Positions 19,950-20,326 of a stretch of DNA of 32,069 nucleotides are shown one piece after another. Location: positions 1 through 32,069 of the forward strand of contig BNXH01000019.1 in the NCBI GenBank assembly GCA_025999435.1. The letters are read 5' to 3'. Positions within the stretch are counted from its first letter, which is position 1, and every line of letters begins with the position of its first letter. The notes under the pieces are model-generated. The model saw nothing but the letters and a program-made list of their open reading frames with translations. It was not told where the DNA came from and ran no database searches. A program made the translations under genes and the position numbers. The DNA comes from Bacteroidia bacterium (GTDB lineage Bacteria > Bacteroidota > Bacteroidia > Bacteroidales > Dysgonomonadaceae).

Positions 19950-19971
19950 TTCTTCTTTCTGTACAATATAA

Positions 19972-20000
19972 AAAAATAGCCGGAATTTCCGGCTATTTTT
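19972..20000 (+). terminator. Strong intrinsic terminator after sufE
   Basis: AAAAATAGCCGGA (19972-19984) pairs perfectly with TCCGGCTATTTTT (19988-20000) over a tight loop, and a T-rich stretch follows. It can act in both directions, so it would also back up termination of the minus-strand RNA at 20016-20249. Confidence 0.9.
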
Positions 20001-20015
20001 CTTTATTTGTTTTAT

Positions 20016-20249
20016 CTATAAAACAGAAAGCCCGCGAATTCCCTTCGCAGACTTCCCAACCTTAACACAAACTTTACAAAACTACACAATAGAGTTGATT
20101 GCAGCCTGATTTGGTTCAGAACGTAATTTCAGGAACCAACTCTGTGTTCTATAATATCTTAATGATAAGAGTAGATTTTATCAAAAAACATCTATACTTA
20201 TCCTTTTATTTACTTAAATAACACTGTAATAAACACTGTTTTTTATTAC
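20016..20249 (-). ncRNA. Candidate structured small RNA with own promoter and terminator
   Basis: On the minus strand a near-ideal promoter (20282-20254) predicts a start at about 20249. The RNA would open with a perfect 8-bp hairpin (GTAATAAA/TTTATTAC, 20249-20226). A long central stem-loop follows: TGTGT's complement ACACA plus GAGTTGGTT (20147-20134) pair with AATCAACTC and TGTGT (20100-20084), continued by CCTGA/TCAGG. It ends in an 11-bp terminator stem (20054-20028) and a T-rich tail. Both long stems contain G-U pairs that become A-C mismatches if read on the plus strand, so the structure is specific to the minus strand. A 10-codon ORF lies in the middle but overlaps no known leader peptide. 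It is downstream of uvrA and convergent with sufE. I cannot assign a family; 6S-like or a Bacteroidales-specific RNA are possibilities. Confidence 0.6.
20028..20054 (-). terminator. Terminator stem of the candidate small RNA
   Basis: On the minus strand AAGTCTGCGAA (20054-20044), a 5-base loop, and TTCGCGGGCTT (20038-20028) pair at all 11 positions when G-U is allowed, followed by TTCTGTTTTATAG. On the plus strand three of those positions are mismatched. Confidence 0.65.
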
Positions 20250-20253
20250 GAAA

Positions 20254-20282
20254 CAAAGATAGTAAATTTTACACATTGACAA
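20254..20282 (-). promoter_or_regulatory. Promoter of the candidate small RNA
   Basis: On the minus strand TTG (20282-20280), 18 bases, then TATCTTTG (20261-20254): the best match in this window to the Bacteroidota -33/-7 promoter. The -33 region overlaps the perfect palindrome AATAGAT-ttt-ATCTATT (20281-20297). Confidence 0.65.
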
Positions 20283-20326
20283 TAGATTTTATCTATTTTT
20301 TTTGTAAAAATATTCTTTTTTGTGAT

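Follow-up and report, generated by a model that had tools for sequence, protein, structure and literature searches.

Results

The gap beside uvrA

How stand-alone bacterial sRNA genes originate is an open question, and it is raised by a gap of 377 bases (19950-20326, from the ORF ends) between sufE and uvrA in the window, as we call the whole analysed DNA stretch of 32,069 nucleotides: does this gap encode an RNA, and from what could such a gene have arisen? The genome that contains the window (G000) is placed with Dysgonomonas and is 51% complete. A preliminary description of the window had given the same gap size and proposed that it holds a free-standing minus-strand RNA of about 230 nt. 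The parts recognized in our analysis are as follows.

20016..20249, minus strand: predicted sRNA of ~223-233 nt with a start near 20249, based on the promoter-to-terminator distance and the fold (z -3.85)
20282..20296, minus strand: predicted OxyR-type operator, inverted repeat ATAGATAAAATCTAT (ATAG-N7-CTAT), exact in 15 of 18 sRNA loci
20254..20282, minus strand: promoter of Bacteroidota type, TTG at 20282-20280, an 18-base spacer and TATCTTTG at 20261-20254, with TAnnTTTG at the matching place in 18 of 18 sRNA loci
20226..20249, minus strand: 8-bp 5' hairpin GTAATAAA/TTTATTAC, 20249-20242 with 20233-20226, read from the sequence
20082..20147, minus strand: frameshifted tpx remnant, last ~20 codons, old stop TAG at 20084-20082, from comparison with intact tpx (L012, L017, L021, L022, L024, L025)
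20091..20143, minus strand: central stem, 20143-20137 with 20097-20091, and inner stem 20132-20129 with 20109-20106, with both-side changes in 3 pairs
20060..20086, minus strand: linear seed-like stretch TGTAGTTTTGTAAAGTTTGTGTTAAGG, common to dispersed copies that were found through it, so that its constancy is partly a matter of selection
20017..20054, minus strand: intrinsic terminator, stem 20054-20044 with 20038-20028, then a T-rich tail, from a terminator scan; the stem covaries in dispersed copies

The minus-strand promoter lies where it had been described (20282-20254) and is one of three matches to TTG-N17-20-TAnnTTTG in the window, two of which are on the minus strand. Both the central stem-loop and the 11-bp terminator stem with its T-rich tail were found again; the terminator scan agreed, and the terminator stem includes two G-U pairs. 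The 8-bp 5' hairpin is present in the window, but by eye it recurred only in the nearest relative (L002). Conservation at the locus is instead found in the promoter and the central stem, and at the 3' end in the terminator and the linear stretch ahead of it. The predicted RNA, folded as 237 nt, had an energy of -59.4 kcal/mol (z -3.85), which one of 200 shuffles equalled.

The RNA had not been matched to a known family, and this was borne out: a Rfam scan of the whole window gave no family at gathering score, 6S RNA included, and listed no OxyS and no FopS model. Known Rfam families were ruled out on this basis. Permissive searches returned scores far below the cutoffs (MicC, 27.3 bits vs. 90; GibS, 20.3 bits vs. 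115, E 2.6; rteR, 21.4 bits vs. 72). A second terminator-like inverted repeat, at 19972-20000, separates the sRNA from sufE; sufE could terminate there on the plus strand, and on the minus strand the repeat could serve as a backup for the sRNA terminator.

Loss of tpx at the uvrA locus

A DNA search of 61 genomes (the host genome and 60 relatives) matched 49, and matches outside the family were weak (best 3.9e-4). An exact search of named genomes for a 43-base core gave 14 stretches, carried by Dysgonomonas (D. mossii, D. hofstadii and other species) and by four records labelled Prevotella; this count may not include the window's own record. Across the genus, the uvrA locus has two conserved blocks: one is the promoter, immediately past the uvrA stop, and the other comprises the final ~145 bases, with a variable middle. 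Comparison with intact loci identified the 3' block as the end of tpx.

Nine loci carried uvrA and an intact tpx together (L012, L017, L021, L022, L024, L025, L027, L028, and L030), and the L017 product was recognized as a thiol peroxidase (NCBIfam NF001808, 236.3 bits, cutoff 123). Intact tpx was found with uvrA unmatched in L029, and neither gene was matched in L023 and L026. Eighteen loci were decayed (L001-L011, L013-L016, and L018-L020): uvrA was present, tpx was unmatched with no intact frame in any of the 18, the last ~20 tpx codons were out of frame, and the old stop TAG and the entire 3' UTR were kept. The Dysgonomonas set comprised 25 genomes (G000-G024), of which 22, all except G003, G007, and G020, could be judged. 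Eighteen of these, the host genome included, were decayed and the other four (G005, G016, G021, and G023) had tpx after uvrA, the same order as in the sister genera read. The predicted RNA is ~190-420 nt long across the decayed loci and ~223 nt in the window. A coding remnant was ruled out; the longest start-to-stop ORFs were 10-46 amino acids, differed between genomes and were not conserved, and the longest within the window's predicted RNA was 11 amino acids, in line with the earlier reading that the RNA has no significant ORF.

A Tpx search of 29 genomes showed that 16 of the 18 decayed genomes have a Tpx gene at another place; the exceptions, with none detected, were the 51% complete host genome and G013. 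The dispersed module described below was absent from the 400 bases downstream of the second tpx in all 18 readable loci (19 loci in all). A second tpx without the module in most decayed genomes suggests that the enzyme was replaced and that the old locus retained only the RNA part.

The uvrA tree needs two state changes because G021, in which tpx is intact, groups with the sRNA-type G022, a placement that speaks against an mRNA-to-sRNA explanation. Holding the 18 sRNA-type genomes together was not rejected (p-AU 0.315), so a single loss of tpx is possible; the idea of several independent losses was set aside on this ground.

Structure and covariation

Sixteen of the 18 sRNA loci were used in the structure alignment. 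A structure of central stem, nested inner stem, possible pseudoknot and terminator had 98.1% of its cells paired, with three pairs changed on both sides. None of 500 shuffles reached its percentage of pairing or its covariation score, three reached the number of both-side pairs and 62 the number of pair types. Compensatory changes were absent from the pseudoknot helix in the 16 loci, and also from the alternative fold that RNAalifold alone favours, where part of the seed is masked by the tpx remnant. The central stem has moderate support in the aligned sequences.

The preliminary description had pointed to the uvrA-side gaps of relatives, where the central stem and the terminator are indeed conserved; both stems also vary with compensation, that of the terminator being counted in the dispersed copies described below. 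A free-standing minus-strand RNA gene is supported by the promoter and 3' domain kept at uvrA in 18 Dysgonomonas genomes, by these compensatory changes and by the lack of a conserved ORF. Sequence comparison indicates that the window locus is very probably a real sRNA gene.

Predicted OxyR control

In 15 of the 18 sRNA loci, the -7 box is preceded at 34-36 bp by an exact ATAG-N7-CTAT motif, which agrees with the Escherichia coli OxyR consensus. Among the sRNA-type genomes, G024 and G006 lack the motif and G013 has a degenerate form of it. The motif was found in none of the nine uvrA-linked tpx loci; in the second-tpx promoters, exact matches numbered 0/18 and one-mismatch matches 2/18. The background in 400 kb of G002 was 0.0091 exact and 0.19 one-mismatch matches per 260 bp.

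Other peroxiredoxin promoters also carried the motif. All eight readable ahpC promoters had it at one position, five exactly and three with one mismatch. For a second, AhpC-like peroxiredoxin, all 17 loci had it with no more than one mismatch, and in 16 of them its distance to the -7 box was exactly 38 bp; these counts are not independent because the promoters compared are homologous. Against a role for OxyR stand the lost or degenerate operators of G024, G006 and G013, the exact motif in only three of the 17 AhpC-like promoters and the one-mismatch background. A longer palindrome, AATAGATNNNATCTATT, also counts against it, as it showed no genome-wide enrichment: with one mismatch allowed, three genomes together had 16 sites vs. 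18 for its reversed control. The host genome encodes an OxyR (L251; best PDB match 4x6g, OxyR, 2.7e-47). The motif in 15 of 18 sRNA promoters and before peroxiredoxin genes makes it likely that the sRNA is under OxyR control, as predicted from these sites. Absence of the operator from the tpx-bearing loci and from G024, the first-branching sRNA-type genome, fits a gain of the operator after the loss of tpx, which is the order that we infer.

A dispersed module of seed and terminator

The 3' end of the sRNA belongs to a multicopy module that consists of TGTAGTTTTGTAAAGTTTGTGTTAAGG followed by a hairpin and a U-run. A covariance model (R1), built from 19 sequences and counted at E up to 0.01, matched 95 of the 101 genomes of the family, mostly once. 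Each matched genome of g10 and g11, both large genera, had a single copy; most others had 1-3, five of the six g6 genomes had 3-8 and the 25 Dysgonomonas genomes had 1-14, with three matches in the 51% complete host genome. Four copies with a divergent seed were read (L027-L030, from genera g8, g3, g2, and g5), and each of the four was a tpx 3' UTR.

Of 51 non-redundant copies, 26 entered the first alignment and 19 were used, the seven with another terminator type being dropped as unalignable. Five pairs of the terminator stem, with 18 cells, were changed on both sides, and no shuffle of 500 reached this number of cells or the covariation score. The linear stretch was nearly invariant in the same 19 copies, a constancy that is partly due to selection because the copies were collected through that stretch.

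Rough rules divided 69 distinct copies into tpx-type (17, six of them with intact tpx), TAnnTTTG-promoter type (17, a loosely defined class), short (19) and others (16). The short copies start at the seed and have GAAC and usually GTTATA boxes ahead (L036-L043, L128-L146, and others); these boxes, unlike the TTG/TAnnTTTG promoter, are perhaps read by another sigma factor. Four of the 16 other copies (L041, L046, L054, and L148) have another terminator type and lie 11-71 bases past genes that end, as judged by eye, like AraC-type regulators.

Three arrangements were seen in passing. At L046, two module copies converge within ~160 bases (G002:568126-568182 and 568208-568280). At L104 (G002:C1:511202), a degenerate copy overlaps, in antisense orientation, the start of a short and, judging from its look, presumably phage-like gene. 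In G015, TTAACTAAAACCTTACAAAA, which resembles the complement of the seed, is identical at nine listed places, and no common surroundings were recognized at six of the nine (L095-L100).

Predicted targets

The module seed was compared with a FopS-type seed taken from GibS-model matches rather than from a published FopS alignment. The susC test used 30 of the 56 SusC matches of one genome, G002, with starts guessed from ORFs and duplex energy as the only measure. For the module seed, the mean was -10.30 vs. -10.31 for shuffled seeds, and 144 of 300 shuffles were as low; for the FopS-type seed, it was -14.82 vs. -10.44 (0/300). With 105 secreted-like genes among 305, 46 of 100 shuffles were as low as the module seed and none of 100 as low as the FopS-type seed. 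The clear signal of the FopS-type seed indicates that the test has power and that the two families differ in predicted targets. Targeting of susC and of secreted proteins by the module was therefore rejected, in tests whose positive control, the FopS-type seed, worked.

Long seed-complementary sites in eight genomes included the copies themselves and scattered others, with no common target among those inspected. In the host genome, a surface protein with an N-terminal VTIGSG...LLDLK sequence has, shortly ahead of its start, one site (L045, G000:C13:13022) that would pair with most of the seed at -21.3 kcal/mol; a second such protein (L237) gave -21.9 at its best start codon and -18.6 at its first. 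The L045 surface protein is a candidate target by predicted pairing. L045 and L044 were fetched for seed similarity and so left out of the shuffle test of this family; for the remaining 12 rows, one of which is a spurious frame (L274) and among which L277 has no row, 39 of 500 shuffled seeds were equally good. The family is only a lead, because L045 and L044 were preselected and 39/500 shuffles match the remaining rows.

Discussion

Origin of the sRNA gene

The explanation that we favour, and regard as probable, is that the sRNA gene was born from an mRNA: tpx was lost, a promoter and the tpx 3' end were kept, and the resulting RNA would be induced by OxyR and pair in trans through its seed. 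In the ancestor, tpx would have come after uvrA, and the tpx 3' UTR, made up of a linear seed and a terminator, would already have been an sRNA-like module. Most Dysgonomonas would then have deleted the tpx frame but kept a promoter and the 3' end, so that only a free-standing noncoding RNA was left, with a second tpx elsewhere, lacking the module, presumably supplying the enzyme. The ATAG-N7-CTAT operator would most likely make the RNA inducible under peroxide stress, and the seed common to the dispersed copies would most likely pair with mRNAs. The sequences themselves show that tpx was lost in place, that the promoter, 3' end and operator are conserved, that the stems covary and that the module was amplified; transcription, control by OxyR and pairing in trans are predicted from them. 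The lack of a target class for the seed in both tests counts against this explanation. We are more tentative about the fuller history, to which we give slightly less than an even chance: that the tpx 3' UTR founded an sRNA family that spread, and that the founding copy then shed its coding part and came under OxyR.

The locus is a gene remnant, its seed has no detected target class and the module always ends in a terminator, all of which would suit a decaying pseudogene with a promoter and a terminator still left, the dispersed module being a terminator-like repeat without regulatory function. We consider this unlikely, as the tail is well conserved over 18 genomes and the RNA middle is not, compensatory changes followed the loss of the frame, and the operator is conserved at a fixed spacing. 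The linear stretch, which termination does not need, is moreover nearly invariant while the stems vary, with the caveat on selection given above. Less likely again is a sponge that mainly binds a protein, such as an RbpB-type RRM protein, rather than pairing with mRNAs. Its long, nearly invariant linear sequence in many copies, the failure to find a target class and the presence of RRM proteins, detected in 31 of the 37 genomes examined for them, among these the host genome, agree with such a role; the isolated long complementarity before a surface-protein start in the host genome does not. A true FopS/GibS member that represses SusC-like transporters is quite improbable, for although layout and copy number are alike and a likeness to the FopS-type seed is seen in the sister-genus tpx 3' UTR, the Dysgonomonas seed itself is unlike it (392/2000 shuffles as similar), has no susC preference (144/300 vs. 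0/300), scores 20.3 bits vs. 115 with the GibS model and coexists with a separate FopS-type gene in the host genome (L285, G000:C48:10332-10424; 40.4 bits to the GibS model, below the cutoff of 115), the seed of which, when tested in G002, strongly prefers susC starts.

Under the mRNA-to-sRNA explanation, a piece of the mRNA of tpx, a gene for defence against peroxide, seems to have survived its protein and turned regulator. The coding gene with a conserved 3' UTR, the amplified module and the frame-lost locus are all present in related genomes, so this route is directly testable. If the explanation is true, the locus would be an OxyR-responsive sRNA in Bacteroidota, whose birth can be traced stepwise in living species, and a link would be predicted from peroxide sensing to the module sRNA family. 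A literature search on Dysgonomonas sRNAs, remnant-derived sRNAs, OxyR in Bacteroides and OxyS, and tpx with FopS, with subscription papers mostly outside its scope, returned no report of this RNA.

Comparison with known systems

OxyS is an OxyR-induced sRNA of E. coli. The window RNA would likewise be an sRNA under OxyR; it differs in having no OxyS match in Rfam, a different origin and an OxyR control that is only predicted.

FopS is a 14-member sRNA family of Bacteroides thetaiotaomicron; it prevents the translation of SusC, and RbpB acts as its antagonist. Its members have a single-stranded stretch followed by an intrinsic terminator, one is derived from a 3' UTR, and FopS is also reported in a phage (PMC11697453). 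GibS is an sRNA of the same species (PMC7366714; Rfam RF04182). The module, too, is multicopy and as predicted has a linear stretch before an intrinsic terminator; the aligned copies have this layout, and one alternative fold covers the seed of the window RNA. It differs in its seed, which lacks a susC preference in the test used, and in its founding copy, which is the 3' end of tpx; the window RNA is also predicted to be longer and to have a structured 5' part. That the Dysgonomonas seed is directly homologous to the FopS type is unsupported, the sole chain running through the sister-genus tpx 3' UTR. The FopS-type seed and the Dysgonomonas module are each similar to this UTR (5/2000 shuffles in either case, for stretches chosen by eye after inspection), which makes a common origin possible. 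These genomes would thus contain two multicopy sRNA families, the FopS type and the module, that differ in their predicted target range.

A further likeness is to sRNAs derived from 3' UTRs (reviewed in PMC9438474). The module lies at the end of the tpx mRNA and has the terminator in common with it; this arrangement was found in L012, L017, L021, L022, L024, and L025 and, with a divergent seed, in L027-L030, and the frame is lost in the window. What sets the window locus apart from these sRNAs is the loss of the reading frame, a promoter that serves the RNA itself and the spread of the module to other loci.
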